A stretch of 46,715 bases of DNA, taken from a virus. The stretch spans positions 1 to 46,715 of IMG/VR virus record IMGVR_UViG_3300024344_000029; one strand, written 5' to 3'. Position numbers and translations under genes: made by a program. The notes below the pieces were generated by a model. It was given only the letters and a program-made list of their open reading frames with translations. It made no database searches and had not been told where the DNA came from. Shown here one piece after another: positions 23,673 to 44,566 of the stretch (its first letter is position 1; each line of letters starts with the position of its first letter).

Positions 23673-23716
23673 GCCTCGAAGAGAGATCTCAGCGATCCTG
23701 AAGACGGAGAGACGAC

Positions 23717-24634
23717 ATGGTCACCAAGCCCAAGTGGGTCAAGCCCTCGAAGACGATCCCCTACCCAGCGGCGATCTTCTTCCGCAACGAGAGCGGCAGC
23801 AACATCGCGGCCGACGCCCTCATCTACCAGACGGGCCTCCTGGGCACCTCGCAGATGACGATGGACGTGGCTGATGCTGACGCCGTCATCTCCACGCAGG
23901 GCAAGCTGTGGATCAACCGGCACCGCGTGCCGGACGACAGCAACTCCGGCGTCGCGGTTCCGTGGACGGTGCTCACGGGCGTCAACACCGCCAGCTCCGC
24001 TGCCGGCAACCCGGTCTTCCTGTCCAACACTGCGGGTGGCTGGTCGCTCTCCGCCGGCACCATCCGCCGGCAGATCGGTCGGGTGATCACGGCGAACGCA
24101 ACCACGGGCTCCGTCCTGCTCTACCCGGACGCCTACTCCGCGGCGCAGACGCTGAAGATGGCGACCGTTGCCGACTCCGCTGCGGTCACTGCGACTGCGA
24201 CCGAGACCGCCTTCGACCAGACGCGGAGCATCCCCGCCAACTTCCTGGGCGTGGGCAGCATCGTCAAGGTCAAGTGGACGGTGCGCGTCACGGCGGACAA
24301 CACCACGGACACGCTCATCCTGCGCTGCCGCATCGGGGCGGCTGACATCACGATCAGCTCCGCCATCGACGTGGCCGCGGGAGACACAATCTCGGGCACC
24401 GCCTGGGTGACCACGCGAGCTGTGCCGGGCGCTGCGGTCGACACCGTGGGTGGAGGCATCACCGTCTTCTCCACGGGCGCCGCGGGCGCTATCTCGACGG
24501 CCTCGACGCTGCCGAACGTCACCACCCTCGCCACCAACACCGCCCTCGTGGTCGACGTCACGGCGGAGTGGAGCAGCGCCAACGCGGGTAACTCCTGCTA
24601 CCTGGAATCGCTCATCGTCGAAGCCGCCGCGTAG
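23717..24634 (+). CDS. Beta-rich virion protein
   Basis: 305 aa with GGAGAG upstream of ATG. The first half contains blocks of short strands (AIFFRNESGSNIAADALIYQ, NPVFLSNTAGGWSL) ending in RQIGRVITANATTGSVLL, similar in style to capsid decoration or fibre-base proteins. The second half, Thr/Ala/Val-rich, resembles a beta-sandwich with few charged residues. Probable surface-exposed virion component, such as a head fibre or tail decoration. No family identified with certainty. Confidence 0.55.
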   Translation: MVTKPKWVKPSKTIPYPAAIFFRNESGSNIAADALIYQTGLLGTSQMTMDVADADAVISTQGKLWINRHRVPDDSNSGVAVPWTVLTGVNTASSAAGNPVFLSNTAGGWSLSAGTIRRQIGRVITANATTGSVLLYPDAYSAAQTLKMATVADSAAVTATATETAFDQTRSIPANFLGVGSIVKVKWTVRVTADNTTDTLILRCRIGAADITISSAIDVAAGDTISGTAWVTTRAVPGAAVDTVGGGITVFSTGAAGAISTASTLPNVTTLATNTALVVDVTAEWSSANAGNSCYLESLIVEAAA

Positions 24635-25030: not shown

Positions 25031-25924
25031 GTGGGAAGCGTCGGCGTCAGCAGCGCGAGGACGGTGCCCCCTGCGCCCGCAGGGAGTGGATCTGACCTGA
25101 ACCTGACCACGGGTGACTCCGAGCAGTCGGGCCTCGCACTCGTCACGAGTACTGCTGCGGACGGGCTGGGGACCTTCACCTGGACCCTGACCGATCCCCT
25201 GGGGGTCAACAGGGACGCCCTGCTCTCCGCCACGGACACCGCCTCCGTCACTTGGACGCCCGACCTGTGGGGCGTGTGGAAGGCGAAGTGCACTGACGGC
25301 ACGGTCACACTGACGCACGTCGTGGAGACGGGCGTCCTCGATGTAGACCTGTCGACACTGACGCTGTCGAATGACGGCGGTGGACTCATCGCCAGCGAGA
25401 CCGCGACTGATCTGAACTTCGCGGCCGTGACCGGAAGCAACGCAGGCGAGGACTGGCCCTATTGGGAGATCGAAGATCTCGTCCCGAACACGTACTACGA
25501 AGTGACAGTTCGAGACACCGCACCTGCGACGGATCGTCGAGGCATCGGCATCGGCTGGCGGGACGACAACATCATGGCATGCGTCGGGTTCTTCAACTCG
25601 GCGAGCGCTCGCGAGTGCTTCTCCGCCTCGGGATCCAACAGCGGGCCGACTGAAGATCTCATCGAGTTCTCGAACGCGAGCATGACGACGGTGCGCTCGG
25701 GATTCTACGTCACAGCTGACAGCAAGCTGCAGCTGCAGATGAACGTCGTAGGCACCAACGACGACAACGAAGGGCTGGCCAGTCAGGCCCGAGGCACTGC
25801 TGCCACGCTGACTGCGCTGAGCAACGGCAAGTTGACTGCGTTCACCCGCCGCGGGACGAACAACGGCACATGCACCATGGGCTACTCGATCAAGGTGCGG
25901 AAGCGCTCCGGGCACACCCCGTAG
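25031..25924 (+). CDS. Virion protein with Ig/PKD-like domain
   Basis: 297 aa from GTG 25031, without a clear ribosome binding site. About residues 25-105 look like an immunoglobulin- or PKD-type domain (GTFTWTLTDPLG, ASVTWTPDLWGVWKAKCTDG). The remainder is a Ser/Thr/Asn-rich beta domain with IGIGWRDDNIMACVGFFNS, somewhat like carbohydrate-binding jelly rolls. Such proteins on phage surfaces often bind sugars or mucus. The terminator-like hairpin after the stop suggests it ends a transcript. Confidence 0.5.
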   Translation: MGSVGVSSARTVPPAPAGSGSDLNLTTGDSEQSGLALVTSTAADGLGTFTWTLTDPLGVNRDALLSATDTASVTWTPDLWGVWKAKCTDGTVTLTHVVETGVLDVDLSTLTLSNDGGGLIASETATDLNFAAVTGSNAGEDWPYWEIEDLVPNTYYEVTVRDTAPATDRRGIGIGWRDDNIMACVGFFNSASARECFSASGSNSGPTEDLIEFSNASMTTVRSGFYVTADSKLQLQMNVVGTNDDNEGLASQARGTAATLTALSNGKLTAFTRRGTNNGTCTMGYSIKVRKRSGHTP

Positions 25925-25939
25925 GGGTTACCCCCCTAC
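25921..25939 (+). terminator. Hairpin after the beta-rich virion genes
   Basis: GTAGGGG (25921-25927), loop TTACC and CCCCTAC form a perfect 7-bp stem overlapping the stop codon. No U tract follows. It could be a weak terminator or an RNA-stabilising hairpin separating virion and lysis genes. Confidence 0.4.
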
Positions 25940-25975
25940 CCATCTGCCGAGGCAGGCAGTACAACTGGAGGCAAG

Positions 25976-26344
25976 ATGCCGAACGAGACCCCAGACCAGG
26001 AGCCCTCGGGCATCCAGCCCGCGCCGGCACTCGCTGTCGAGGCGACGCCCGCAGGCTTCTTCTCCGCACTGCTCAATAGCCCGAAGCTCACGGCCAGCGC
26101 GGTGAGCCTCGCGGTCGCGATGAGCGTGGGCCCGTGGGGCGTACACACGTTCCTCGGCGAGTACATCAGCCAGTACCTGGACATCCAGGAGCAGCGACTG
26201 GTGACGTCAGATCTGACCGCGCGTGTGGCCGCAGTCGAGGCAGGGCTGTCGAACCACAATGAGCTGTCCGCCGAACGCCACCGCGGCATGGTGGACAAGA
26301 TCGAACTCATCCTCAAGTACACCTCACCCGGGAGCACACCGTGA
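25976..26344 (+). CDS. Holin-like membrane protein
   Basis: 122 aa, GGAGG eight bases upstream of ATG. A Pro/Glu-rich start precedes one hydrophobic segment (about residues 39-60, TASAVSLAVAMSVGPWGVHT), then a charged helical tail (ISQYLDIQEQR, VAAVEAGLSNHNEL). One membrane span with a hydrophilic coiled-coil-like C-terminus resembles single-span holins or haemolysin-type XhlA proteins, which let the lysin reach the wall. The following two genes fit a lysis cassette. The residues themselves do not prove holin activity. Confidence 0.5.
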   Translation: MPNETPDQEPSGIQPAPALAVEATPAGFFSALLNSPKLTASAVSLAVAMSVGPWGVHTFLGEYISQYLDIQEQRLVTSDLTARVAAVEAGLSNHNELSAERHRGMVDKIELILKYTSPGSTP

Positions 26345-26580
26345 CCTGCCTCACGATCTTCGCCCTTCTTGCCCACGCGGCTCCGCCCGCATCCCCACCT
26401 GATGTCAGCGTCGAGGCTGCAGCGGAGGTTGACGCCAAGCTCGCCGAGCTACTCTCTCAGCTGCAGGCCGAGGCGCCCGCGCCTGAGGGCGTCGAAGAGA
26501 CGCCGCCTGTGGCGGAGGCGCCGGGCGACAGCGCCGACTCGGGCGTGGACGAGGGCCCGCTCTTGGTGCCGGTGAAGTGA
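26341..26580 (+). CDS. Small secreted protein in the lysis cassette
   Basis: 79 aa, GTG start overlapping the preceding stop (GTGA). A short hydrophobic N-terminus MTCLTIFALLAHAAPPA could act as a signal peptide cut after the AHA. The rest is acidic and Pro/Glu/Ala-rich with a helical LAELLSQLQAEA. Pro-rich small exported proteins beside holin and lysin are often spanin components in Gram-negative phages, but there is no lipobox Cys here, so the spanin idea is tentative. The stop overlaps the lysin start. Confidence 0.4.
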   Translation: MTCLTIFALLAHAAPPASPPDVSVEAAAEVDAKLAELLSQLQAEAPAPEGVEETPPVAEAPGDSADSGVDEGPLLVPVK

Positions 26581-27212
26581 TCGAGGTCCCAGCGGGCCTT
26601 GACCTGCAGAAGCTGGTCAAGATCGCGTGTGACCAGCACGGCTACAAGTTTTTCGAGAACGGCGACTATGACCTCAACGTGGGCGGGCTCCGTACTGGCC
26701 CTCACGTCACGAATCGGTTCGACGACCTCGGCTGGTGCATCTACCGCAAGGGCGGCGTCTGGCAGACGCACCTGTGGGCCATGACTACAGACCCCGGGGC
26801 GCCATACCTGGAACAACCGATGCGAGAGGAGGGGTGCGCCATCCTCGTGCCTGATCAGTACCGCGGGTGCTGGAGGCTTGGCACGCACCGGGGCAAGCCG
26901 GGGCTGGTTCAGATCAAGCCGGTCAAGGTCTACCGGGACGACGACCGTGATGGAATGCTGAACTTCGATCCGGCAACCATCCAGGAGGGTCTCTTCGGGA
27001 TCAACCAGCACCGTGCAGGAGCCAACTCAACACAGGTCGGGAAGTGGTCTGCAGGTTGTCAGGTGACCGCAGCTGACGCCGACTTCGAGGAGTACCTCGC
27101 CATGTGTCGCATGCAGCGAGAGCAGCGCGGCTGGGAGAGCTTCAGCTATACGCTCTTTGATGTGCGTCAGACCCCCGCGCTGTCTGCGCTGCTGCATCTC
27201 GCCGCCTCGTGA
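26577..27212 (+). CDS. YkuD-like (L,D-transpeptidase-fold) cell-wall lysin
   Basis: 211 aa from GTG 26577 (GTGA overlap). The C-terminal half shows an L,D-transpeptidase-like pattern: GINQHRAGAN (His145) and KWSAGCQV (Ser158, Gly160, Cys161), matching the family's HxG ... SxGC signature. The first 120 residues contain a globular domain with WCIYRKGGVWQTHLWAMTTD. In lytic phages this fold could hydrolyse the peptide stem of peptidoglycan. It follows the holin-like gene. Alternative: a structural protein derived from the same fold. The catalytic Cys and His are present. Confidence 0.6.
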   Translation: MIEVPAGLDLQKLVKIACDQHGYKFFENGDYDLNVGGLRTGPHVTNRFDDLGWCIYRKGGVWQTHLWAMTTDPGAPYLEQPMREEGCAILVPDQYRGCWRLGTHRGKPGLVQIKPVKVYRDDDRDGMLNFDPATIQEGLFGINQHRAGANSTQVGKWSAGCQVTAADADFEEYLAMCRMQREQRGWESFSYTLFDVRQTPALSALLHLAAS

Positions 27213-27226
27213 TATAGGCTGCAATC

Positions 27227-28072
27227 ATGGGAATCGGAAAGTTCTTCGTCTGGCCTCGCCTCAACCGTGGGCCGCAGATCGCAACGGACGTTGACGTAAA
27301 CGACGTCCACACGCTCAAGGCGATGCTCGCAGGGATTCCCGGCGTCAGCATGGTGGACGGGTCGATCCCAGGTCTCACCAGCATTGTGAAGTTCGGGCGG
27401 AACGACAACGTCGGCACGACCGAGGAAGACCTGTGGATCAACGGGGGCACGTACACCGGGTGGCTCACGGCGGCGTCCGCAGTGCGGGTCAAGGCTGGTG
27501 GAGATGCGGCGGACGACGCAGCGGGTGCGGGCGCTCGCAAGATCATGGTCGAGGGTCTGGACGAGAACTGGGAAATCGCGACCGAGGAGATCACCCTCGC
27601 TGGAGCCTCGGTCAGCAGCCCCACCTCGATCACCTTCATCCGGGTGTACCGGGCGTGGGTCACGGACGTGGGCACCTACGGTGGAGACAACGAGGCTGCT
27701 GTCCTCATCGAGACCACGGGTGGAGCCCTGGTTGCCAACATCGAGGCTGGCAAGGGTCAGACCCAGCTCAGCATGTACACGGTCCCAGCGGGCAAGACGG
27801 CGTATGTGCTCCTTGCACGAACCTACGTCGCGGGCAACAAGAACGCCGACGTGTTCTTCTGGCAGCGGCAGGACGCCGACGTGACCTCGGCGCCGTTCAC
27901 GGGCAAGCGTATGTGGCACCCGATCGACCAAGTGCAAGGCCCTGCTGGTGGGGATCACCCCATTCCGCACGTCTTCCCGGCCAAGACAGACATCTGGGCT
28001 TCTGCGGTAGGACCGTCCGGCGGTGCCGCAGTGTCCACGCGCATGTTCATCGCGCTCTTGGACGCCGCGTAG
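27227..28072 (+). CDS. Virion protein of the marine podophage type
   Basis: 281 aa, ATG start. A conserved-looking central block contains KFGRNDNVGTTEEDLWING, RVYRAWVTDVGTYGG and SMYTVPAGKTAYVL. I have the impression of a protein family in environmental tailed phages, usually annotated only as structural or fibre protein, with a beta-sandwich style. A short N-terminal region (about residues 1-45) may attach it. It lies after the lysis cassette, so it could be a late-expressed fibre or decoration protein. Function not established. Confidence 0.55.
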   Translation: MGIGKFFVWPRLNRGPQIATDVDVNDVHTLKAMLAGIPGVSMVDGSIPGLTSIVKFGRNDNVGTTEEDLWINGGTYTGWLTAASAVRVKAGGDAADDAAGAGARKIMVEGLDENWEIATEEITLAGASVSSPTSITFIRVYRAWVTDVGTYGGDNEAAVLIETTGGALVANIEAGKGQTQLSMYTVPAGKTAYVLLARTYVAGNKNADVFFWQRQDADVTSAPFTGKRMWHPIDQVQGPAGGDHPIPHVFPAKTDIWASAVGPSGGAAVSTRMFIALLDAA

Positions 28073-28128
28073 CTACAGCAGCACCGTCGTGATAGGGTGG
28101 GGAGCTACATCAACCCCTGGAGAGATCC

Positions 28129-28347
28129 ATGTCCCTGTCCAAGTCCGAAGCCAAGGAACACCTGTCCACCCTCAAGAAGGTGCACAACGCGCTCGGTGAG
28201 CTGATCGATGAGATCACCGAAGCCATCGAAGACGGCAACGTCTCCACCTCCGAGTGGGCGAGCATGGGACGCAACGCCCTGGCTCAGATCTTCACCGTCG
28301 GGCCCAGCATCCTCGCCTTCATTCGAGACGTGAAGGACAACGACTGA
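28129..28347 (+). CDS. Small helical protein at the end of the late module
   Basis: 72 aa, GGAGAGATCC upstream of ATG. Predicted fully helical: a charged N-terminal two thirds (KVHNALGELIDEITEAIEDG) and a more hydrophobic C-terminal helix (ALAQIFTVGPSILAFI), perhaps membrane-associated. It is the last plus-strand gene and meets the minus-strand genes after five bases. It may help lysis or be a small virion protein; no family recognised. Confidence 0.55.
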   Translation: MSLSKSEAKEHLSTLKKVHNALGELIDEITEAIEDGNVSTSEWASMGRNALAQIFTVGPSILAFIRDVKDND

Positions 28348-28356
28348 GGATCTCAG
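28344..28356. terminator. Small hairpin at the convergent gene junction
   Basis: CTGAG-GAT-CTCAG, a 5-bp stem that overlaps both stop codons of the converging genes. It has no U tract and is weak, but it is the only structure seen where the two transcription units meet. Confidence 0.25.
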
Positions 28357-28580
28357 CCCCTACGCTGCCGAGGTGGCGACCGACGAACCGGAGTCGCCCC
28401 CTCGGCCAGCTCGCCCTGAGCGCCATAGATCGTTAGCACGATGCAGGCGTCGCAACGGTACCCGACACCCGGAACGCGGGTTGCGGCCGGCTCCCCGCAG
28501 GTCACGGGCTTCCCGCCGTCAGGGGTCTCTTCCCAGCGGATGCCCGTGCAGGGGCCGTCGAGCGCGTAGAACATGCTCAT
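28353..28580 (-). CDS. Small Cys-containing protein
   Basis: 75 aa, ATGA overlap with the preceding gene on this strand. It has Cys at the start (GPCTGIRW), VTCGEP and YRCDACIV, so four Cys in two pairs could bind zinc, and a basic C-terminus (RRSPPRQRR). The last gene of the minus-strand unit. No known family. Its size and pattern match the many small zinc-type proteins of this half of the genome. Confidence 0.55.
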   Translation of the reverse strand: MSMFYALDGPCTGIRWEETPDGGKPVTCGEPAATRVPGVGYRCDACIVLTIYGAQGELAEGATPVRRSPPRQRRG

Positions 28581-28819
28581 CTCCCGAAGAGCTGGTCGAA
28601 CAGGTCTGGCGTCGGGCCAGACGCTGCCCGCAGGCGCTTGCGTAGATCTGCATTCACCTCGCGGAGCTGCCTGTTCTCCTCGCGGAGCTTCTTCGCAGCG
28701 CCCTGCACGCCCTTGCCCTTGTCGTTGTTCCGACGCACGACACCGCGAAGGCGGTGAATCTCCAGGAGCTTCGACTCCTCGGAGGGGAAGTCCTTCCGCA
28801 GTTCAGACAGATCAACCAT
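28577..28819 (-). CDS. Small coiled-coil protein
   Basis: 80 aa, preceded by GGAGGAAACG, a strong ribosome binding site. Highly charged and helical throughout with heptad-like spacing (ESKLLEIHRLRGVV, KKLREENRQLREVNADLRKRL), ending in PTPDLFDQLFGR. The last motif (DLFDQLF) is a short hydrophobic peptide that could dock on another protein. A DNA-binding or regulatory role is possible but not shown. Confidence 0.6.
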   Translation of the reverse strand: MVDLSELRKDFPSEESKLLEIHRLRGVVRRNNDKGKGVQGAAKKLREENRQLREVNADLRKRLRAASGPTPDLFDQLFGR

Positions 28820-29375
28820 CGTTTCCTCCTAACGCCACCTCGAACACCCCGCCCGACAGCCACCACCCCGCCTCGGCAGCGGCGAGGTCTGCGGCTGCCT
28901 TGCCGGCTGCGGTCGTTGGACGCGCCTGCCTATGGTGGCGCGGCGTGCTCGATCGCGTCCACGCCTTCGCCCCGTCGGGCTGAACCGCCCACTGCCACGG
29001 ACCCTTGCGGCCCAGCACCGGCTTCCCCTGGCTCAGCCGCTCGACCACAGCCCACCGCAGCGCGAGGGCTTCGTCGGGTCGGTTCGCGGTCCAGTCCAGG
29101 GGCGTGGGTGGGCGGAGCCAGCCGGTGCTGTTGCAGTGCGGGCACGCTGCCCCACCGTCCGCCCAAAGACCCACAGGGCACTGCTCCCCACGAGACGCCC
29201 ACCAGCGCAACAGGTCCCCAGCAGCAGGGCACTCCATCCGCAGCGCGATCACGTCGCTGACCGTCACGAAGGGCGCTGGAAACAGGTCCGACGGGCGAAG
29301 CCCGAAGTAGACACGGGCCGCCTCCAGGATCGATTTCTCCGCGTCGTCGAGGACGAAGTAGTTGTCAGCGGGCAT
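28812..29375 (-). CDS. Hypothetical protein, 187 aa
   Basis: Starts with ATG behind GGGAGCCGACG, the same initiation context as several genes in this region, and overlaps the previous gene. The N-terminal half (about residues 1-60) is mixed helical. A single CPHC pair (around residue 78) might join a zinc site, and the centre is Trp-rich (NRPDEALALRWAVVE, GPWQWAVQP). The C-terminus ends in Gly-rich GWWLSGGVFEVALGG. No domain recognised. Confidence 0.55.
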   Translation of the reverse strand: MPADNYFVLDDAEKSILEAARVYFGLRPSDLFPAPFVTVSDVIALRMECPAAGDLLRWWASRGEQCPVGLWADGGAACPHCNSTGWLRPPTPLDWTANRPDEALALRWAVVERLSQGKPVLGRKGPWQWAVQPDGAKAWTRSSTPRHHRQARPTTAAGKAAADLAAAEAGWWLSGGVFEVALGGNDG

Positions 29376-30054
29376 CGTCGGCTCCCACAGCGCCCACCAG
29401 CCCCTGGGTCAGCAGGAGCCGATCGGCGTCGTCGAAGGTGTCGTTCATCCACCGCCAGAGCAGGCCCTCATGTGTGGCGCACGCCTCGTCGTTCTTGAAC
29501 GCAGCAGCCTCCAGCCACCAGAACCGGAGTGCAGCGCCCACGTCCCGGGAGTCGTCGAGGTCGAAGCGGCGCTCTTCCGGGAGGGTGTCCATCAGGGGTC
29601 GCCAGGGATCGACACTGAGGTCGATGGGCGGCAGGGTGTCGATCAGGTCAGGGGTCATCGGCGTGATCCTTGGGTTGCCGTCCGGGGTCGCCAGAAGCAT
29701 GTTGCTCATGTAGAAGTCCTCGCGCTCGGCGGCTGTCGGGTCGCGTTCGGTAGTCAGGCGCATGAAGGCGTCCCGAAGCTCGGCGGGCTTGTCGGTGGTG
29801 ACTTCGTGCCCGCGCTCCTTCAGGAAGTCCCTGACTCGATGCCGGCTCAGGCTGGCGTCGTGGTTGGGGTGAGAGAGGACGAGGGCGATGTCCATGGACT
29901 CGAAGACTTCGCGCAGCCCGACTGCGGACGCGAGGAAGTGAACGTCTTCCTCAACGGACAGCCATGGGCCAACGACGCCGGCTTCCAGGTCCAGCACCAG
30001 CACCCCCGGCATCAGCAACGAGTCGTAGGCAGGGCAAGTCACGATGTCGGTCAT
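29365..30054 (-). CDS. Hypothetical protein, 229 aa
   Basis: ATGA overlap with the HNH gene upstream. The first 75 residues read like a HAD-type beginning: a hydrophobic strand ending in Asp (LVLDLEAG) and a second strand ending in Ser (IALVLSHPN), but the usual second Asp of DxDx(T/V) is Glu and no third motif is evident, so activity is doubtful. The C-terminal half is acidic with FDLDDSRDVGAALRFWW and WRWMNDTFDDADRLLL. No family certain. Confidence 0.5.
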   Translation of the reverse strand: MTDIVTCPAYDSLLMPGVLVLDLEAGVVGPWLSVEEDVHFLASAVGLREVFESMDIALVLSHPNHDASLSRHRVRDFLKERGHEVTTDKPAELRDAFMRLTTERDPTAAEREDFYMSNMLLATPDGNPRITPMTPDLIDTLPPIDLSVDPWRPLMDTLPEERRFDLDDSRDVGAALRFWWLEAAAFKNDEACATHEGLLWRWMNDTFDDADRLLLTQGLVGAVGADDAR

Positions 30055-30593
30055 TTCCTGCTCCTCCGCTGGTCCCTCTTGCGCTCACAGGCCCGACACA
30101 CCCGGTACCCACGACCGTCTGTGCGGGTGTTCTTCTCGTCGAACGGGTGCCCGTTCTTGCAGTGCGTCTTCCTGGCGTTGAGCGCCGTCGGAGACTCGCC
30201 GCGCAGGATGTTCTCCTTGCGCGTCACGGGCTCCAGGTGCTCGGGGTTGCAGCAGAGCCGGACCCGGCACAGGTGGTCCAACTCCAGCCCGTCCGGCACA
30301 GGGCCGACCAGCCGCTCGAAGGTGGCACGGTGAACCAGGAACTTCTGGCTGCCCTTCTGAATCTGCCCGTAGCCCTTGCCGTTCGTGGAGCGGGTCCACA
30401 GCCAACAGGTGTCGGTCTTCTCGATGCCGGACCACAGGCGGTGCTCGAAGTCGAAGTAGGGCGTCCACTCGGGATCGCCGTTCCGCCTCCAGCGCTGGTA
30501 GTGCAGAGCGCACCACCCTTGAGCCAGGTGCTTGCTGTTGCAGCCGTCGAGAGTGCAGGACCGCTCGGGCTGGTTGGTATACTGGTTCGGCAT
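30051..30593 (-). CDS. HNH endonuclease with zinc finger
   Basis: 180 aa from ATG 30593 (GGAGCGACG upstream). It carries a Cys4-type finger at the N-terminus (C13, C18, C28, His31 in CTLDGCNSKHLAQGWCALH) and the core ELDHLCRVRLCCNPEHLE, giving an HNH motif with Asp106-His107, Asn116 and His119, after the typical CWLWTRSTNGKGYG. The basic C-terminus has a further Cys pair (CRACERKR). Such free-standing enzymes cut DNA and can home between phages. It may instead aid packaging. It sits in the cassette-like region, consistent with mobility. Confidence 0.85.
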   Translation of the reverse strand: MPNQYTNQPERSCTLDGCNSKHLAQGWCALHYQRWRRNGDPEWTPYFDFEHRLWSGIEKTDTCWLWTRSTNGKGYGQIQKGSQKFLVHRATFERLVGPVPDGLELDHLCRVRLCCNPEHLEPVTRKENILRGESPTALNARKTHCKNGHPFDEKNTRTDGRGYRVCRACERKRDQRRSRK

Positions 30594-32712: not shown

Positions 32713-33035
32713 GGGGCCTCCTTGAGGGCTCGGATGGCATCAGCACAGTGACAAGCCCCGGCAGCCTCGCCGGCAGCCATCGCCTGCGCTTGTGGGAATG
32801 TCGGGCGGTGCGACTCATCTTCGGCTGCGTCGGCCACGTCGTCACACACCTCCGCAGCCCGCTCAAGTGCCCGCGCCTCGGCTGCGGCCAGGGCTGCATC
32901 CACCCGGACAGGGCAGTAGGACCACTCCTGGGTCCTGAGCATCCCGCAGTGCTTGCAGTAGCCGTTGATGCCGTGGCCATCGTGCTCGTGCTTCAGCCCC
33001 TCAGCCCGCGCCCGGTTCTCGGTCTTGTCAGACAT
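32709..33035 (-). CDS. Small Cys/His-rich protein
   Basis: 108 aa from ATG 33035 (TGATG with the GroES stop); the longer frame upstream lies inside GroES. Motifs HDGHGINGYCKHCG and EWSYCPVR suggest a zinc site formed by His and Cys. An Ala/Glu-rich helical part with further Cys (AAEVCDDVADAAED, GACHCADAIRALK) follows. Similar His-Gly-x-Asn-Gly-x-Cys-x-x-Cys patterns occur in small phage zinc proteins. Function not known. Confidence 0.6.
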   Translation of the reverse strand: MSDKTENRARAEGLKHEHDGHGINGYCKHCGMLRTQEWSYCPVRVDAALAAAEARALERAAEVCDDVADAAEDESHRPTFPQAQAMAAGEAAGACHCADAIRALKEAP

Positions 33036-33340
33036 CAGAACGGGGTCTCGTCTTCCAGCACACCGAGCACGTCGCCCATCTTGAGGAAGACGCACTTCTC
33101 CTCGTTGACAACGATCTCGCTGCCGACGTAGTTGCCGATGAGAATGGTCTCACCGGGGCGCACGGACATCTCCGTGATTGAACCGTTCGCGTGACGGATG
33201 CCCGGACCCACCGCCACGACCCGCAGGTGGTTGAGCTTGCTCCGCACGGCCGACGCCGGGAGGTGCAGGCCGCTGGGGGTGGTGGACTCCGCGTCGATGC
33301 GCGTGGCCAGGATGTTGTCGTGGAGGGGGTTGATCTTCAT
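33035..33340 (-). CDS. groES: GroES-type co-chaperonin
   Basis: 101 aa, the usual length of the family. It follows the Cpn10 pattern: start KINPLHDNILATRID, a mobile loop near residues 17-32 with SGLHLPAS (hydrophobic docking peptide for GroEL), the strand VVAVGPG (41-47), and the C-terminal GNYVGSEIVVNEEKCVFLKMGDVLGVLE. Phage-encoded co-chaperonins such as T4 gp31 replace host GroES so that the coat folds in the host GroEL chamber. No GroEL is in the window, so the host protein is the likely partner. It overlaps a tiny Cys-rich frame at its start. Confidence 0.85.
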   Translation of the reverse strand: MKINPLHDNILATRIDAESTTPSGLHLPASAVRSKLNHLRVVAVGPGIRHANGSITEMSVRPGETILIGNYVGSEIVVNEEKCVFLKMGDVLGVLEDETPF

Positions 33341-33442: not shown

Positions 33443-34717
33443 TCAGCCGAGGGGAAACTTGCAGATCGACCACCCTCCCGGGGGCCGACCGCGCTTGAGC
33501 TTGACGGCGGTGACGACGCGGAGACCCTGGGCCCCCTGGAGGGCGCCGAGGATGTGCCGCAGGAAGTCCTCGTCCAACCAGCGGTCACCCGTCATGGTGA
33601 CCGGGAGGCCGCCCTCTTCGTGCACGCGGATGGACACTGCGGCACAGATCGCCGCGAGGAGGAGCTGGCCCTCGCCACCGGAGAAGCCCATGCGAATGTC
33701 CTCGCCGTCGCGAAAGCCCGCGAGGAACTGCCGCCCGTGGAAGGCCCCGCGAAAGGCGAACCCTTCGGGCAGGTGGGAGTTGATCTCGTCGCAGATGCTC
33801 GGGAGGGCGGACTTGACCGCGGCCTCCATCCAGGACTGGATCCACTTGAGGACCTTGTCGAGCACCTTGACCTCGGCGGAGACGGACTCCGCTTCGAGCT
33901 GGAGACCCGCAGCCACAGCCAGGGCCTCGCTCGCGCTGGGCAGCTTCGCCTTGGGCAGGGCCTTGGTGACCTTCGCCAGCCGGGCGGTGACCTTCGCCTC
34001 GTCCGTGTCCTCGCCGCAGGTGATGCAGTTCGGCTTGCCTCGGGTGAGCTGGGCCCCCATGATCTGAGCCAGGGGACGCATCAGCGCCTTGCCGTCTGCG
34101 TTGTCCACCGTACGGCAGGACTTGACCACCGCCATCGCAGCCGTCAGTGCCTTCAGCCGGTCCTTGTGACCCTTGAGCACCTTGGCGACCTTCGTCTCGG
34201 CGGCGAGGAGGTCGGAGCTGTCGGTGAACTCGAACGGGTTGTCCTCCGGCGTCGGGCTGATCTCGAAGCTCTCGATGCGATTGAGCACGGTGTCGTCAGC
34301 CAGCGGGGCCTTGGGCAGCTCCGGGGAGAAGCGGTTCACGAAGAAGCGCACGGCGGTCGTGGCACCGCCTGCGACCATTGCCTCGGCCTCCTGCCACAGG
34401 AAGGCGACGTCGGCTTCGAGGCCCGACCAGGACAGCTTCTCACCCTGCTCCCAGCGGGCGATGCCCAGCTCGCCCAGATCGATCTCGGCGAAGGGGGCGT
34501 CGGCGGTGGTGGCGAGCACTGCGCTGCGCCGGGAGCCTGCCGCCACGCTGTCTCGGAGGCCCACGTCGAGGGCCTTGCCCGAGAGCGGGAGCTGGATGGC
34601 GTTGGTGAACGCGGTCTTGCCCGAGCCGTTGGGCCCTAGGGCGATGATGCCGGAGCTGAGATCCTGCAGGGTGACGGTGTCACCTCGCTTCAGCCGGTAG
34701 GAAAGGGACTTGATCAT
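33443..34717 (-). CDS. Compact Rad50/SbcC/RecF-like ATPase
   Basis: 424 aa, ATG behind GAGGTAGCACTC. Walker A GPNGSGKT (28-35), an ABC-type signature FSGGEGQ (345-351) and a Walker B-like DRWLDEDF (378-385) are in SMC/Rad50 order. The coiled-coil arms are very short, and CITC (231-234) stands at the centre as a zinc hook. This resembles SbcC/Rad50 or RecF proteins that bind DNA ends with ATP. No Mre11/SbcD phosphodiesterase neighbour is visible; partners may be the Cas4-like nuclease or the Sak4-like ATPase. Served by its own promoter, so likely an early replication or repair gene. Confidence 0.8.
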   Translation of the reverse strand: MIKSLSYRLKRGDTVTLQDLSSGIIALGPNGSGKTAFTNAIQLPLSGKALDVGLRDSVAAGSRRSAVLATTADAPFAEIDLGELGIARWEQGEKLSWSGLEADVAFLWQEAEAMVAGGATTAVRFFVNRFSPELPKAPLADDTVLNRIESFEISPTPEDNPFEFTDSSDLLAAETKVAKVLKGHKDRLKALTAAMAVVKSCRTVDNADGKALMRPLAQIMGAQLTRGKPNCITCGEDTDEAKVTARLAKVTKALPKAKLPSASEALAVAAGLQLEAESVSAEVKVLDKVLKWIQSWMEAAVKSALPSICDEINSHLPEGFAFRGAFHGRQFLAGFRDGEDIRMGFSGGEGQLLLAAICAAVSIRVHEEGGLPVTMTGDRWLDEDFLRHILGALQGAQGLRVVTAVKLKRGRPPGGWSICKFPLG

Positions 34718-34753: not shown

Positions 34754-34782
34754 ACGCTAACAGGAAATAGCGGGATTATCAA
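34754..34782 (-). promoter_or_regulatory. Promoter for the Rad50-like gene
   Basis: TTGATA (34782-34777), 17-nt spacer, TAGCGT (34759-34754). The -35 box overlaps the TGA stop of the polymerase gene. It matches the promoters at 45745 and 42011 in the -10 sequence and spacing. The start codon lies 37 bases after the -10. Confidence 0.75.
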
Positions 34783-37319
34783 GTATCACTCCACCGCTGC
34801 GCGATTGCTGCCTCGGCGGTGAAGTCGACATCGAGGTGATCGATGCGCATGGTCATGTGGTGCTGGATGATGCCCTTGACCTCCTCTCCGAGATCTTCAG
34901 GGCAGATGGCGCACAGCGAGTCGTGCACCTGATTGCAGATGCCGAAGCTGCCGGCGACATCAGTCGGCAGGGGGGCGGCGAAGTGCTCGCCCGTCAGCGG
35001 GTCCCAGCCCTTGGTGAGCCGGAGAGTCGCAGCGTTGACGATGCCGGCGCCACCGCCCTGGATCGGGAAGTTGACCAGCTCGTTCTTCTTGCCGCCCGTG
35101 CCGGTGAAGTACCTGCGCCTGCCCATGACGGACTCGGCGAGCCAGCCCTGGCGACGGAAGGTGCGCTGCATGAGCTTCCACCACTCGCCCACCTCAGGGT
35201 CGGGCTTCCACATCTTCTTCGTGATCACGCGGATGTCCCGCACGCTCTTGCTCGCGAAGATCAGGTTGCCGTCCTTGTCCTCAGCCTCGGTGACCACACC
35301 GTGGGCAGTCTCCGCCGAGGCGTCGTACTGGGTGGCGTAGCGGACACGCTTGATGAGATCGCGTCGGAGCGAGAAGAGGCCCTTGCCCTTGGCGACTGCG
35401 CCCGCGATGGTGCCCTCGGGCGGGGCGCCTGCGAGCTGCCAGATGCCCTCGCCGAAGACGTCGAGCATCGCCGTGGTGTGCGGGTCGATGTCCTGGGCGA
35501 AGACCTGGAGCAGCCGCTTCGCCCCAGCCTCGGCTGCGATGAGTCGCAGCTCCAGCTGATCGTAGTCCGCGCCCACCAGGACGAAGCCCGGAGGGGCGAC
35601 GAAGATGTCACGTAGGTGCTTCGGCACGTTCTGGAAGTTCGGGCCCGAGCTGGAGAAGCGGCCGGTCAGGGTGCCCTGGACGTTGTAGTCGGGGCGGATC
35701 TGGAAGTACTCGTCCCGAGGAGCGCCTGCCCACCAGGGCCGGAGGTAGGTGGTGAGCACCTTGTTCGTCTGCCGGTACTTCCTCAGGGCCTTGATCGCCA
35801 GCCGCTGTTCGGGCTCGACCAGGGGGTTCGACAACAGCGCACGCAGGGCATCGTCGTCGGTGCTCTCCAGCCCAGCCTTCGTGAAGCCCTGGGCAGGCAG
35901 GGACCAGCGGTTGAAGATGATGTCCCGGATCTGATCGTAGCTGTTCGGGTTCAGACCCGGGCGCCCGAAGGCTGCGACGACTGCTGCCCGCTGCACCTCG
36001 ACTCGCTCCTCGTAGTCGATCAGTCGATTGCGGAGCTGGACGCGGTCGACCCACATGCCCAGGCGGTGCATGCCCACGCAGACATCCTGAAGGGCGGAGT
36101 CGATGGCGTAGAGGTGGCGCTGCCCGCGCCGCTCAGCGAGCTGCTTCATGGGCTTGGCGATCCGCGCAGTGACCGCGACGTCCGTGGCGTTGTATGCCCA
36201 CAGCTCGTCGTCGGTCTTGGCGGTGACCGCCGTGTGCTCGCTCTTCCAGGAGGGCACGTCGGTGTGGATGGAGCCCCGGTAGGCGAGGCTCTTGGGCATC
36301 TCGGAGTCAGCCAGACGGCTGAGCAAGATGGTGTCGACCAGCCTGCGGGGCGTCACGCCGAACTGCGTCTCGATCACCATGCGGTCGAAGTAGCCCGCGT
36401 TGTGCCCGAGGAGTGTGACCTTGGGGTCCCGGAAGAATCGAGTCAAGATCCGGCGGATATCGTCCTCGTCGCGCTTGCCCCAGATGCGGGACACGCCGTC
36501 GACAGACAGCAGGCCCACGACAACCACGTCGTCGGTGGTGCCCAGGGCGAGGCATCGGAGGTTGGCCGACAGCGGGTCGATGCCGTCGGTCTCCACGTCG
36601 TACGCCACGGGCCGACCCGCCCGCTGCCAGTCGCGCAGCTTGGAGTGCAGCATCTGTGGCGGCGGGTTGTACGTGACCTTCGGATCCTTCCAGGTCAGCT
36701 TGCCCGCGAAGAAGCGCTTGGCCTTGGCGATGTCCAGCTTGAAGATCCGCTGCCACTTCAGCATCCCGGGCTTGTAGACCGACTGCGGGTGAAGCGTGGG
36801 CAGGACGAGCCGATCTTCCGACTGGGCGGGGCCTCCCCGGATGTCGAAGATGTTGGCGTTCCCCGAGAGCACGGCGGAGGCTGCGCTCTTCCCCATGGGA
36901 ATCAGACGATCTGCCCCAGCAAGCTCGGCGTCGAGCCGCGGGCGGCAGCAGGTCTCGGGCGTAGGTCGCGGGGCCTTGTCCTTGCGCTTGCGCGTCCGGT
37001 TGCTCCGCTTCAGCTTCGCCAGGAACTCCTCACTACGATCGTTCGGATAGCGGCACGCGACGGTGTTCGTCCAGTGGAAGTCGCGGCGTCGGAAGCCGGC
37101 CGCATCCAGAGCTTCCAGGGAGAGCACGCCCGCGGGTCCGACGAAGGGGCGGCCGTGGATGACTTCCTGTTTGCCGGGCGCCTCACCGACGATGACGGCG
37201 GTGGCGCCTGGGTTCCTCTCCGCGGGGACAGGCGCGAACTGATCGAGTCGACGCCAGTGCGCACCAAGAGGGCACTGGTCACAACGAGCAAGGTCGAGAG
37301 CGTCATCAGGGGAGATCAT
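34779..37319 (-). CDS. polA: Family 4-type uracil-DNA glycosylase fused to family A DNA polymerase
   Basis: 846 aa from ATG 37319; the frame extends 44 residues further but that part overlaps other genes. Residues 1-205 are a uracil-DNA glycosylase: Cys13, Cys16, Cys89 and Cys124/125 for an Fe-S cluster, GEAPGKQE (45-52) and LHPQ with His177. The 3'-5' exonuclease has DVE (241-243), NAGYFD (307-312) and YNATD (376-380). Polymerase motifs: DYDQLELR (585-592), RRDLIKRVRYATQYD (652-666) and VHD (798-800). All catalytic acids are present. It copies phage DNA and could remove uracil ahead of synthesis. Motif B has Tyr661 where E. coli Pol I has Phe762. Confidence 0.9.
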   Translation of the reverse strand: MISPDDALDLARCDQCPLGAHWRRLDQFAPVPAERNPGATAVIVGEAPGKQEVIHGRPFVGPAGVLSLEALDAAGFRRRDFHWTNTVACRYPNDRSEEFLAKLKRSNRTRKRKDKAPRPTPETCCRPRLDAELAGADRLIPMGKSAASAVLSGNANIFDIRGGPAQSEDRLVLPTLHPQSVYKPGMLKWQRIFKLDIAKAKRFFAGKLTWKDPKVTYNPPPQMLHSKLRDWQRAGRPVAYDVETDGIDPLSANLRCLALGTTDDVVVVGLLSVDGVSRIWGKRDEDDIRRILTRFFRDPKVTLLGHNAGYFDRMVIETQFGVTPRRLVDTILLSRLADSEMPKSLAYRGSIHTDVPSWKSEHTAVTAKTDDELWAYNATDVAVTARIAKPMKQLAERRGQRHLYAIDSALQDVCVGMHRLGMWVDRVQLRNRLIDYEERVEVQRAAVVAAFGRPGLNPNSYDQIRDIIFNRWSLPAQGFTKAGLESTDDDALRALLSNPLVEPEQRLAIKALRKYRQTNKVLTTYLRPWWAGAPRDEYFQIRPDYNVQGTLTGRFSSSGPNFQNVPKHLRDIFVAPPGFVLVGADYDQLELRLIAAEAGAKRLLQVFAQDIDPHTTAMLDVFGEGIWQLAGAPPEGTIAGAVAKGKGLFSLRRDLIKRVRYATQYDASAETAHGVVTEAEDKDGNLIFASKSVRDIRVITKKMWKPDPEVGEWWKLMQRTFRRQGWLAESVMGRRRYFTGTGGKKNELVNFPIQGGGAGIVNAATLRLTKGWDPLTGEHFAAPLPTDVAGSFGICNQVHDSLCAICPEDLGEEVKGIIQHHMTMRIDHLDVDFTAEAAIAQRWSDT

Positions 37320-38950: not shown

Positions 38951-39895
38951 CTACAGCTCCGTGTCGTCGGTGAGTGCCCCCGAGAGGGCGGTGATGAAGT
39001 CGTCCACGAGGTTGGCCTGGGCATCCAGGAGCCGCGCTCGATCGTAGGAATCTCGGATCGCCCACTTGATGTGCTCGGGGGCGATGCCCTTGGAGCCCAG
39101 CTTGGTGGCGATGGAGGCGAGGTAGGTGCCCATGGCTGCGGTGTCAGCCTCCTGCATGATGGGCAAGATCTTCTGTGACGCAGCCGCCACAACCTTGTCC
39201 ATCCAGGCGAGCCCCTTGGGGCGGGGCACGTTGTAGCCCGCCTCTCGCAAGAGCACGCCCAGGTTCGCAGGGAAGAAGGGCGGGCTGATGCCGGTGCGGT
39301 CGCCGGTCACGTAGTCCGGATCTGGTCCCGTCTGGTACACGTAGGGCCAGCTCGGTGACGTCTCGTCGTACACCATGCGGATGACCATGGACATCCAGGC
39401 GGGGTACTCCTCGGGCAGCTTCCACCCGGGTACCAGCGGCCCGCCGGGCAGCGGCGTCTCGACCTTGGTCTTCTTGTTCTTGACCGTGCGCGGGTTCATC
39501 TCGTGGTGCGAGGTGAAGACGACGGCGTCGACCTCGTCGGCCAGCACACAGAACTCGCGCACCTCTTCGATGGTCTCCGTGAACCGATCCCAGTTGTCGC
39601 CGTGCTTGATCGTCATCAGCCGCAGGGTCTCGTCCATGGCGAAGTTGAAGTCGTCCAGGACGATGGACGAGGCCGAGGCCCCGTGCTCGTGCAGGGTGTC
39701 GATCGCATCCCGGACGTTCGTCAGGGGCACCGCCCGGTCCATGATGCGAGCAGCGACGTCTGTGCCCAGCATGCGGGCAGGGAGCAGGGCCCGAGTGCGG
39801 GCCACGAAGATGCTCTCCGGCAGGCCCGCCAGGAGCGAGAAGGTCTTGCCCTTCTTGGGAGGGGCGTAGACGCAGCCGAAGGTGGTCTTGGACAT
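38951..39895 (-). CDS. RecA-like ATPase of the Sak4/AAA_24 type
   Basis: 314 aa, ATG behind GAGGTAGCACTCC, the ribosome-binding element shared with two other DNA genes. Walker A is APPKKGKT (11-18), Walker B IVLDD (78-82). Further on, FCVLADEVDAVVFTSHHE resembles a sensor strand. Short RecA-type ATPases of this kind (Sak4-like) act in phage recombination or replication with SSB, consistent with the SSB-like gene that follows. No DNA-binding loop can be assigned. Its own promoter lies 22 bases upstream. Confidence 0.75.
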   Translation of the reverse strand: MSKTTFGCVYAPPKKGKTFSLLAGLPESIFVARTRALLPARMLGTDVAARIMDRAVPLTNVRDAIDTLHEHGASASSIVLDDFNFAMDETLRLMTIKHGDNWDRFTETIEEVREFCVLADEVDAVVFTSHHEMNPRTVKNKKTKVETPLPGGPLVPGWKLPEEYPAWMSMVIRMVYDETSPSWPYVYQTGPDPDYVTGDRTGISPPFFPANLGVLLREAGYNVPRPKGLAWMDKVVAAASQKILPIMQEADTAAMGTYLASIATKLGSKGIAPEHIKWAIRDSYDRARLLDAQANLVDDFITALSGALTDDTEL

Positions 39896-40224: not shown

Positions 40225-41151
40225 CTACTTCATCCCCTGGCAGCGGGCGATGTGCGGGCAGGCGCCGTAACGCCCGTAGCACTGGAAGGACTGCGGCCAC
40301 TCCTCGGGAGGAACACCGGCTCGCTTCAGGTCAGCGATCTGCCGGCGCCAGAAGACCACGGTCTTCTTGAACGTGATCATCGCAGCGGGTGCTGAGGGCA
40401 GACGGGGCCGCCCGAAGTTGAGCTTCTTCTTTGTGATCTGGACTGCGTTGAGGATGTTGCCGCCCCACTTCGCGCCCCACTTCGCCTTGCACAGGGCCTC
40501 GTAGCCGATGAACTGGAGGGACATCGCGTAACTCGGGGCGACTGAGTTGATGAGCATCGACGTGCCCTTGTGATCGACGCTGAACACCTGCTTGAACTTG
40601 CGGTGCCAGATCATCAGGTCGGGGCGCTGGGTGTAGAGGTAGCGCACAGTCTCGGTCGCGAGCTGCGCAGCCGACGCGCCGTCAGCCTCAACGGGGCCGA
40701 CGACGTCGTCCTCGAAGTCATCCCAGATGACCTTGACCCGCTCCGGATCTTTGACCCGCACGCGCAGCTCACCCTCGACATCGAGGATCTTCCAGTCCCG
40801 GTCGTGGTTCCAGTAGCTGTGGTACTCCTTGATCGCCTCCTTGACTCGGGGCGCCAGCTCCACGGGCATCTCGCTGCGGTGCTCCTCGGCCAGCAGGGCA
40901 GCCTTGGTGTCGACTGCCTCGGTGGGACGCAGCCACTGTGCAGGATCCTCGCTCATCTGGACAGCCTGGATGCGGCGGTAGTAGTGGGCGAGCCCGGTGT
41001 GCAGGAGGATGCCCCGGAGCAGCGGCATCTTGTCGCCGTCGTCCTTGATCCCCAGCTCGTACTCGTAGCCGTACCGACGGGGGCACCCGATGAAGGTCGA
41101 CAGGCGGCTGGAGCCCCAGGTGCTTTGTCCTCGATCAATCAGCTCAGACAC
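40225..41151 (-). CDS. Cas4/RecB-like PD-(D/E)XK nuclease
   Basis: 308 aa from GTG 41151, behind GAGGTAGCA. Motifs: SRLSTFIGCPRRYGYEY with Cys23 at the start, RGILLHTGLAHYY (His51), RPDLMIW (Asp178) and FSVDHKGTS (Asp193, Lys195), then Cys291, Cys298 and Cys304 in CYGRYGACPHIARC. Cys23 plus these three are the four Cys expected for an Fe-S cluster in AddB/Cas4-type nucleases. Likely an exonuclease that trims DNA ends for recombination or packaging. It may work with the Rad50-like ATPase. A terminator hairpin precedes it, so its promoter is not obvious. Confidence 0.8.
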   Translation of the reverse strand: MSELIDRGQSTWGSSRLSTFIGCPRRYGYEYELGIKDDGDKMPLLRGILLHTGLAHYYRRIQAVQMSEDPAQWLRPTEAVDTKAALLAEEHRSEMPVELAPRVKEAIKEYHSYWNHDRDWKILDVEGELRVRVKDPERVKVIWDDFEDDVVGPVEADGASAAQLATETVRYLYTQRPDLMIWHRKFKQVFSVDHKGTSMLINSVAPSYAMSLQFIGYEALCKAKWGAKWGGNILNAVQITKKKLNFGRPRLPSAPAAMITFKKTVVFWRRQIADLKRAGVPPEEWPQSFQCYGRYGACPHIARCQGMK

Positions 41152-41217: not shown

Positions 41218-41946
<729 letters not shown>

Positions 41947-42297: not shown

Positions 42298-42834
42298 TCA
42301 GAAGATGCTGTCGTCATACTCGATCGGATCCTGTTCGGGGTGAGGTAACGTCCCGCCGCACTCGCGGCAGAACAGCTCGTTCTGAGACTGCAGGTGTTCC
42401 CACAGCTCCTGCTCGAAGGCGCCCTCCCACTGCTTGCGCACCAGCCAGTCGTGGTCGACGACCAGCTGGGCGATCGGCACACCGGGGATGCGGCCGAGCA
42501 GGAGCTTGGCGGCGGGGCGGTAGCGCTCGATGTCCTGCCGGCGATGACGCCCGCTACGAGAGCGGGTTGCGTTGTAGCTCAGGCCGAGATCGGAGCACAG
42601 CCTGAGCAGCGAGCCTCGGCCCTTGAGTGTGTTGCAGGCGTAGCAGGCAGTGACAAGGTTGCTCGGCTGGTTCGAGCCAGCCTTCGTGCGGGGCCTGACG
42701 TGGTCGAGGGTGAGGAAGTTCGCACCGTCCGGATCCTTCACCAGGGCCTGGATGGTGGCGCGGCAGTAGACACAGGCGAGCCCGTCACGGAGGTAGATGG
42801 CCCAGCGCGTCGTGGTGTATGCCCACTGGCTCAA
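42298..42834 (-). CDS. HNH endonuclease after the helicase
   Basis: 178 aa from TTG 42834, which shares bases with the helicase stop (TTGA); the long open frame further upstream runs antisense-like inside the helicase and is not real. Core motif: CVYC (21-24), TLDHVRPRT (Asp44-His45), SNLVTACYACN (Asn59, Cys64, Cys67, Asn68), a classical HNH with treble-clef zinc. The C-terminal part has a second Cys set (CRECGG). May nick DNA in replication, packaging or homing. Coupled to the helicase gene by the overlap. Confidence 0.85.
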   Translation of the reverse strand: MSQWAYTTTRWAIYLRDGLACVYCRATIQALVKDPDGANFLTLDHVRPRTKAGSNQPSNLVTACYACNTLKGRGSLLRLCSDLGLSYNATRSRSGRHRRQDIERYRPAAKLLLGRIPGVPIAQLVVDHDWLVRKQWEGAFEQELWEHLQSQNELFCRECGGTLPHPEQDPIEYDDSIF

Positions 42835-44294
42835 TCGTCCATCTCCCACAAGATCCTCGCAAGGATCTCTTCTTCGTCTTCGTCTCCCGCGACTGCCGCC
42901 ATGACAGCCTCGGCTTCCTCGTCGCCCACCGCCTCGCTCACCTGCTCCAGCTTGGGCAGCAGGATGCTGGCGATGCGCTCGTCCTCCGTGCCCTCGGCGA
43001 TGGGGTACAGCACCAGGGCGGGGCGGGTCTGCCCGAGTCGGGCGACCCGGTTCTCTCGCTGGAGGATCTGCCCGGGTGTGTACGGCAGCATCGACAGCAC
43101 CAGCAGGTCGGTGTCCTGGAGGTTCTTGCCCTCGCCGTAGGCATCGCCGGTTCCCACCAGCAAGGCGGGCCCAGGCTGCGCCATGTACTCGACGCACGTG
43201 GTGTCCACGTGGGCAGGGCCGAAGCCACCGTGTCCGAACCAGACGGGGCAGCCGAGCCCTTGCTTCTCGATCTTCTTGCTCAGCACCTCGGCGAGCTTCT
43301 CGCAGTCCTTCTGCCGCCCGGTGAAGATGACCACCTTCTGCTTGCAGATCAGGGCGTCCATCACTGTGTCGACCAGCCACTTCTGCTTGCGGGTGGCGGC
43401 CTCCATGAGGCGCATCTCCAGCAGGTTCTGCTTGCCCTTCTTGGCTGCCCGCCGCAGGTCTTGCTTGAACGCAGCCGGGCGGGACTGATCTTCCTTCCGG
43501 AGGTAGACGAGCTGCCGCCGCTTGGGCGGGAGGAAGCGGTTGACCTGGGCCTGCTTCACACGGTGCCACGTGCGCCGCAGGTTCTTCTTCAGCCTGCCGA
43601 CGTTCGACTTGCCCGAGGTGTCGAGCCCGCCGTACTCACCGGGCGAGGCGTCGCAGTACTCGTGGGCGTAGTTCCAGCTCGTGTCCCAGCAGCCGGGCTC
43701 AAGCACATCCTGCTGACTCCACAGATCCATCAGGCTGTTGGGCACAGGCGTTGCGCTGAGGCCCAGGCGATAGCGGCACGCCTTCGAGAGCGCAGCGGCG
43801 GCGTTGGAGATGTTGTCCAGGTTGTCCCACACGATCCTGTTGTTGCTGCTGATGCGTCGCGCCACTCGCTTCCAGGCACGGGCGTAGTGCAGCTCATCGA
43901 AGATGACGATCCCACCCCGAGCCCAGCGGGACAGCTCCGGCTGCCATGCAGCCAGGGTTGGCCAGCCCAGCACAACCCAGTCGATCGCCTGCGGGATGGG
44001 GTGCGGCGTCCTGCCGGTGAGCACCTGGGGGCGGATGGTGGAGAAGCGTTCGATCTCTCGACGGAACTGATCTCGCACCGGGGCCTTGGTCACGACGATC
44101 ACCTTCTTCCCGGAGTACGCCTGCCACACGAGCCCAGTCCAGATGGCGCCGAGGGTCTTGCCCGCACCTGCTGCCCACACGAAGTAGGCGGCGTTGCGCT
44201 CGGTCGCCCACTGCACGCCCTCACGCTGGTAGTCGACGGCGAACTCGGGGACCCAGGGTCGGAGGGTCGATGGGATGAGGGGAGAGGCGGTCAT
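42831..44294 (-). CDS. SNF2-type helicase/ATPase
   Basis: 487 aa from ATG 44294 (TGATG overlap). Superfamily 2 motifs: AAGAGKT (41-47), DELH (133-136), SAT (180-182), and the end-domain motif QRENRVARLGQTRP, typical of SWI2/SNF2-type ATPases, with a GEGKNLQDTDLLV block just before it. Such phage proteins remodel or unwind DNA, and many have been linked to recombination or replication start. It probably acts on DNA-bound proteins or forks. It is the only helicase recognised here. An HNH gene follows directly. Confidence 0.9.
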   Translation of the reverse strand: MTASPLIPSTLRPWVPEFAVDYQREGVQWATERNAAYFVWAAGAGKTLGAIWTGLVWQAYSGKKVIVVTKAPVRDQFRREIERFSTIRPQVLTGRTPHPIPQAIDWVVLGWPTLAAWQPELSRWARGGIVIFDELHYARAWKRVARRISSNNRIVWDNLDNISNAAAALSKACRYRLGLSATPVPNSLMDLWSQQDVLEPGCWDTSWNYAHEYCDASPGEYGGLDTSGKSNVGRLKKNLRRTWHRVKQAQVNRFLPPKRRQLVYLRKEDQSRPAAFKQDLRRAAKKGKQNLLEMRLMEAATRKQKWLVDTVMDALICKQKVVIFTGRQKDCEKLAEVLSKKIEKQGLGCPVWFGHGGFGPAHVDTTCVEYMAQPGPALLVGTGDAYGEGKNLQDTDLLVLSMLPYTPGQILQRENRVARLGQTRPALVLYPIAEGTEDERIASILLPKLEQVSEAVGDEEAEAVMAAVAGDEDEEEILARILWEMDD

Positions 44295-44566
44295 CAGTTC
44301 CAGTAGTCTTCGAGCCAACCGATCTCGATCAGCTCGTCCAGGTCAGCGGCAGCCATTGCCATCTCGATGAGGCCCTGGCGGTGCTCGTGTGCCGACCGCT
44401 CGTCGGCGGGCACGTAGCCGGGGGAGCGCACGACGCGGTCGCCGATGCGCAGCACGACGTGCCGCCAAGCTGTGATCCGGGAGGTAAGCCACGGGCCGGT
44501 AGCGGTGGGCTCGAAGGGGTTCTCCGCGCCGTAGCCGAAGTGATCTTCGATCAGTGTCACCCGCAT
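44294..44566 (-). CDS. Hypothetical protein before the helicase
   Basis: 90 aa from ATG 44566, overlapping the membrane protein gene by ten bases. Sequence RVTLIEDHFGYGAENPFEPT suggests a beta-rich start, followed by Trp- and Arg-rich ITAWRHVVLRIGDRVVRSPG and an acidic helix at the end (ADLDELIEIGWLEDYW). It overlaps the helicase by TGATG, so the two are probably translated together. Not recognised. Confidence 0.55.
   Translation of the reverse strand: MRVTLIEDHFGYGAENPFEPTATGPWLTSRITAWRHVVLRIGDRVVRSPGYVPADERSAHEHRQGLIEMAMAAADLDELIEIGWLEDYWN

Follow-up and report, generated by a model that had tools for sequence, protein, structure and literature searches.

A short-armed Rad50/SMC-like ATPase in a conserved recombination and replication operon of phages

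The ATPase gene and its operon

The window, i.e. the whole stretch of DNA that was analysed (46,715 nucleotides, IMG/VR record IMGVR_UViG_3300024344_000029), carries on its minus strand a gene for a Rad50/SMC-like ABC ATPase, identified by its homologs and by AlphaFold2, together with a set of recombination and replication genes. The 424-aa ORF lies exactly where it had been predicted from the DNA. It starts with ATG, has a plausible ribosome-binding site upstream (GAGGTAG) and is directly preceded by the stop codon of a polymerase gene. The relevant features are:

33443-34717, minus strand: Rad50/SMC-like ABC ATPase with short arms and a central CxxC, 424 aa
34613-34636, minus strand: Walker A GPNGSGKT, residues 28-35 (alignment)
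34118-34219, minus strand: outgoing arm helix, residues 167-200 (AlphaFold2)
34016-34027, minus strand: CITC mini zinc-hook motif, residues 231-234 (alignment)
33779-33934, minus strand: returning arm helix, residues 262-313 (AlphaFold2)
33668-33682, minus strand: ABC signature SGGEG, residues 346-350 (alignment)
33572-33601, minus strand: non-canonical Walker B and D-loop VTMTGDRWLD, residues 373-382 (alignments)
34779-37319, minus strand: uracil-DNA glycosylase (UDG)/DNA polymerase I fusion, UDG-PolA (Pfam UDG, DNA_pol_A_exo1 and DNA_pol_A; start inferred from the related contig L002)
38316-38945, minus strand: candidate DUF669-like ssDNA-binding protein (weak match; start inferred)
38951-39895, minus strand: Sak4-like RecA-fold recombinase (PHROG 124; AAA_24 with 26.9 bits against a cut-off of 27)
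40225-41151, minus strand: Fe-S nuclease of the RecB/AddB/Cas4 type (PDDEXK_1, 2.4e-11)
42831-44318, minus strand: SNF2-type helicase, the first gene of the conserved module

A homolog with 64% identity is found at the same place in contig IMGVR_UViG_3300030419_006275 (L002), which shares the order helicase, Lys-rich protein, nuclease, Sak4, SSB, UDG-PolA, ATPase and GroES. Between this pair the ATPase has a dN/dS of 0.28, as compared to 0.14-0.18 for nuclease, Sak4 and polymerase; it is thus under purifying selection and evolves faster than its neighbours. Together with the homologs, this value rules out a chance ORF.

The arrangement is widely conserved. The six genes (SNF2 helicase, Fe-S nuclease, Sak4, SSB-like protein, UDG-PolA and ATPase) stand in perfect order in 51 of the 55 polymerase loci that have at least 1.8 kb of downstream and at least 5.5 kb of upstream sequence. 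The ATPase itself follows the polymerase in 93 of the 95 distinct loci whose downstream sequence reaches 1.8 kb or more; in the clade, it is missing from this place in L173 and L207. It is likewise missing there from the polymerase relatives outside the clade that were inspected (L030-L043), with Virus Rctr197k as the exception. There, PDDEXK_1 (22559-23404), AAA_24 of the Sak4 type (23510-24214), the polymerase (25140-28088) and a 732-aa Rad50-like protein with a CVLC motif (28128-30326) follow in the same order as in the window. This protein, Rctr197k_029 (APU88860, annotated as hypothetical), shares with the window ATPase the slot behind UDG-PolA and a hook, but has a much longer central region. 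The literature search, which covered open-access papers, returned no description of this operon.

Some further observations concern the neighbourhood. A GroES-like co-chaperonin (33035-33340) is encoded directly behind the ATPase and is kept in L002 (77%). Between helicase and nuclease, a protein with acidic (EP)n and basic (KAK)n repeats is encoded (41218-41946), which is conserved in part in L002. An ORF with an HNH endonuclease domain (42298-43569) overlaps the helicase gene with its 5' part and is probably a shorter HNH gene. The family-4-type UDG motif at the N terminus of the polymerase reads GEAPGKQE in the window, GDFPGKQE in L002 and similarly GDFPG in relatives; given this variation, glycosylase activity may have been lost in some of them.

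Fold and active site of the ATPase

Rad50 is usually understood in terms of its nuclease Mre11, of long arms and of a zinc hook, as in Mre11-Rad50, SbcCD and, in phages, gp46/47 of T4. Rad50/SMC-like ATPases in phages are of an already known kind. Like Rad50/SbcC, the window protein has an ABC head, Walker A, signature, D-loop, a helical arm and a central CxxC. AlphaFold2, run with 76 sequences, gave a model with a pLDDT of 88.4 and a pTM of 0.83, in which the head carries a helical arm of about 34 residues and a tip; the tip (210-226, hook 231-234, 240-253) makes the turn before helix 262-313 leads back to the signature lobe. Apart from this helix and the outgoing one, no long antiparallel coiled coil was found in the model, in agreement with the short arms of the original prediction.

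The ABC-type head that had been predicted was also recovered: in the model, the head is a Rad50/SMC-type ABC fold, and its best solved match is the head of E. coli SbcC (Z 16.4, 292 residues, 4.6 A). SMC5/6 and other SMC heads were among the further matches, as were RecF (Z 14.9-15.3) and solved LmuACB chains of Lamassu; the heads of SbcC, SMC proteins and RecF are close to tied. In sequence, the family profile found archaeal and Thermotoga Rad50 as its best solved matches (E 2e-10 to 1e-9), and the ATPase of L002 and several other homologs pass the Pfam AAA_23 cut-off. The model of an archaea-specific SMC-related protein (ASRP, NF045487) gave only 18.3 bits against a cut-off of 300, and only in the hook region. 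In a viral structure library, Foldseek matched three unnamed proteins, whose lengths (467, 668 and 325 aa) correspond to size classes of the family described below; a 732-aa match there is probably the Rctr197k protein.

Walker A, ABC signature and CITC, all named in the prediction, are indeed found in the sequence, and G28 and K34 of Walker A as well as S346 of the signature are invariant across the 76 sequences. The Walker B that had also been claimed is not canonical; the strand ends in VTMT-G377-D378-R379. When aligned to Methanocaldococcus Rad50 (LDE), residue 377 corresponds to the Walker B aspartate and 378 to the catalytic glutamate. In the window ATPase the Mg-binding aspartate is therefore replaced by Gly377 and the catalytic glutamate by Asp378, and in this alignment to archaeal Rad50 the window protein does not show the pattern hhhhDE. 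The family consensus across Walker B and D-loop is hhhh[DEPYG][DE]RxxD, unlike the hhhhDE of Rad50/SbcC: position 377 is D in 33, P in 21, E in 15, Y in 3 and G in 2 of the 76 sequences, position 378 is D in 70 and E in 5, R379 is kept in 74 and the D-loop D382 in 71. As the window protein and roughly one third of the family have lost the Walker B aspartate, hydrolysis is doubtful. In some homologs the third glycine of Walker A is replaced by H or R.

A comparable case is LmuB of Lamassu, in which Walker B carries a change from Glu to Gln and slow or altered hydrolysis has been proposed (PMC10586767). By analogy, we infer that the phage ATPase may bind ATP and engage its heads with slow or altered hydrolysis. 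A reading as a catalytically dead ABC protein that scaffolds or regulates the replisome and takes no part in end processing could draw on the G, P or Y at position 377 in many members and on the lost Walker A glycine in some, but is highly improbable because the Walker A lysine, the signature serine, the acid at 378 and the D-loop aspartate are invariant or nearly so, which favours ATP binding and head engagement.

Arm length and hook in the family

The homologs were recovered mainly through the polymerase. A tblastn search of GenBank phages with the ATPase protein gave no genuine match even at E 10; weak matches, for example a gene amid structural genes in Rhizobium phage RHph_X3_9, were rejected as chance. 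Motif-pattern searches of IMG/VR and GTDB found only L002 again. That direct sequence searches came out empty is accounted for by the fast evolution of the ATPase. An alignment of the polymerases of the window, L002 and Virus Rctr197k was used as bait and brought in 80 viral loci, and a profile built from the two ATPases of window and L002 then matched homologs beside the polymerase in the nearest loci. Three polymerase-based scans and one ATPase-based scan of viral contigs with the iterated profile yielded 94 distinct homologs of at least 280 aa beside the UDG-PolA fusion. As most were found via the polymerase, the ATPase sequence was not the criterion by which they were selected. One locus (L114, JAERSQ010000243.1), a 57-kb contig from a metagenome-assembled genome of a Proteobacteria bacterium, contains the whole module; it is probably a phage that ended up in the bin and gives a hint of the phylum of the host.

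In this one slot the full-length proteins range from about 327 aa without a hook to 732 aa with CVLC in Rctr197k, some of the recorded lengths in the family being cut by contig ends. The smallest forms (~327-343 aa) have no hook. Proteins of 413-448 aa with CxxC occur in the window, L002, L116-L118, L183 and L232, and forms of ~426-518 aa are without CxxC. CLxC is found at 548-562 aa and hooks of the CPxC type at ~612-719 aa. The long forms match models of the phage SbcC family (phrog_77) and of LmuB, the former being a further likeness to Rad50/SbcC. Loss of ATPase motifs is independent of arm length, as some long hooked forms in L219 and related loci have a broken Walker A glycine (GSNTSHKS). 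The hooked ATPase of L119 (6208-7417) is divided between two frames that overlap, owing to a frameshift or to an error in sequencing. In the hookless clade, a protein of ~150-170 aa with an N-terminal 'FYAH/FLAH' is encoded between polymerase and ATPase (L090:9245-9751, L110:9338-9793, L112:9250-9705, L113:9534-10001); it is absent in the window, and the two copies scanned had no Pfam match.

The hook is present or absent as a whole. Both cysteines are aligned in 24 of the 76 homologs, the other 52 have a gap there, and there are no intermediates; CITC of the window aligns exactly with CGVC, CPVC and CLVC of the hooked homologs. The idea of a hook private to two phages had come from the first relatives, all of which lack CxxC, and was dropped when the polymerase-based scans gave a hooked clade and hooked long forms. 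Mapped on the polymerase tree (89 rows), the hook requires at least 4 changes, as compared to 24.7 for shuffled labels. Under a midpoint root, used for display only on a tree with long branches and no established root, long hooked forms fall on one side and short forms on the other; if this root holds, the ancestor would have been long and hooked, and the short forms would have arisen by reduction, the hook being lost several times. Tethering via the hook is not the role conserved in the family, because most members have no hook. In the open-access literature searched, an all-or-none mini-hook appears to be undescribed, as do the Mre11-free operon and the series of arm lengths in one orthologous slot.

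The nuclease partner and possible functions

As had been claimed, no gene of the Mre11/SbcD type was found in the window record. Metallophos gave no match over cut-off in 47 records, nor did Metallophos_2 in 27 of these, but these contigs are classed as linear and could be incomplete, so that the absence of SbcD is not proven. Three sub-threshold metallophosphoesterase matches were seen, one each in L186, L192 and L257. The positive control found metallophosphoesterase genes in 14 of 14 bacterial and archaeal genomes, and a host SbcD could serve the phage ATPase. That the ATPase works with host SbcD/Mre11 or another host nuclease is nevertheless very improbable: the operon supplies an intact nuclease of its own, the arms are too short for a conventional SbcC and Walker B is degenerate.

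The Cas4-like gene that had been placed about 6 kb away is found 5.5 kb upstream. Its key residues are H51, E126, D178 and D193-H-K195, and four cysteines (C23, C291, C298 and C304) are conserved. Across 118 nucleases, C23, H51, E126, D178, D193-H-K195, C298 and C304 are kept at 96-100% and C291 at 99%, from which an active Fe-S nuclease of the RecB/AddB/Cas4 type is probable. With PDDEXK_1 over cut-off, catalytic residues and four cysteines, it belongs to the pfam12705 Cas4-like phage nucleases (PMC5704561); a text search of that paper found no mention of Rad50.

Is this nuclease the partner of the ATPase, as had been suggested? Synteny, the intact nuclease site and the negative searches for Mre11 make the pairing reasonable. 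However, the ATPase is linked equally to Sak4, SSB, polymerase, helicase and nuclease, so that synteny singles out no pair. Moreover, members of the nuclease family are also found in phages that have a related polymerase but lack the ATPase (L032, L043 and Gordonia phage Button, MW202554), and the pairing must therefore be inferred. The proposed end-processing pair gains in that the arrangement is not peculiar to this phage, and loses in that the nuclease also occurs where the ATPase is lacking and Walker B is degenerate.

On balance, we lean towards a Rad50/SMC-type ABC ATPase that has a fixed place in a phage recombination and replication operon and that works, in the absence of Mre11, at DNA ends or junctions. 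It is not assigned to Rad50 proper, since a canonical Walker B, long arms and an Mre11 were looked for and none of them was found. The fold, the motifs, the family, the synteny, the intact nuclease and the Mre11 searches all point this way; each step of its action is conjectural. Two heads would close on ATP and clamp DNA, and the Gly-Asp Walker B, with the slow or altered hydrolysis expected of it, could make a long-lived clamp or sensor. This clamp might admit or direct the Fe-S RecB/AddB-type nuclease, together with the SNF2 helicase, to resect the DNA end. The 3' single strand would then pass to SSB and Sak4, which would use it in annealing or invasion, and UDG-PolA would extend it. In the window lineage, the CITC mini-hook, judged by its sequence, probably dimerises the two short arms via zinc; the family as a whole would function without it.

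It is tempting to speculate further, and here we are clearly less confident, that ATPase and nuclease form an Mre11-free phage end-processing machine. The Rad50-like clamp would here control a nuclease from another superfamily, and arms and hook would have been cut back or lost again and again since the ends need no tethering. Unlike Rad50/SbcC, the window ATPase has an arm of only tens of residues.

The main rival is a RecF-like mediator, the head of which would load Sak4 after recognition of ssDNA/dsDNA junctions or of gaps coated with SSB, arms and hook being dispensable leftovers. The smallest, hookless ATPases are near RecF in size, the structural scores of RecF and SbcC heads lie close together, Sak4 and SSB are nearly always in the operon, and the repeated changes of the hook fit as well: like RecF, the protein is a short SMC-type ABC head beside a RecA-fold protein and an SSB. 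We nevertheless regard this role as rather unlikely, since CxxC hooks are retained, in exact alignment, both in the window lineage and in the long forms, whereas canonical RecF has none, and since the family profile is nearer to Rad50 than to RecF; hookless relatives of the ATPase do exist.

A phage-borne defence or anti-defence protein of the LmuB type, directed for example against superinfecting phages, is very improbable. LmuB, too, is akin to Rad50 and has a short coil; its hook is present in many members and absent from others, and many systems couple it to PD-(D/E)XK effectors (PMC10586767). In these traits, as in the altered Walker B, the phage ATPase resembles it. Matches to the LmuB model were partial: the best was the long form of L230 (E 8.9e-11), the window matched over 47 residues only (E 4.8e-5), and no full-length match was obtained. 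Unlike LmuB, the ATPase is strictly linked to replication genes in a phage operon rather than to a variable accessory site, its Walker B has changed to Asp instead of Gln, the operon nuclease is of the Fe-S RecB/Cas4 type, and next door are helicase, nuclease, Sak4, SSB and polymerase, with neither an LmuA effector nor LmuC found.

For the end- or junction-acting ATPase that we favour, about ninety contigs of uncultured phages offer long hooked, short hooked, short unhooked and almost armless versions in one orthologous slot, all beside the same nuclease and recombinase; in the records that were searched, Mre11 was detected with none of them. This natural series allows direct tests of what each part of a Rad50-like protein is required for, and also of whether such an ATPase is able to drive a nuclease from a different superfamily.
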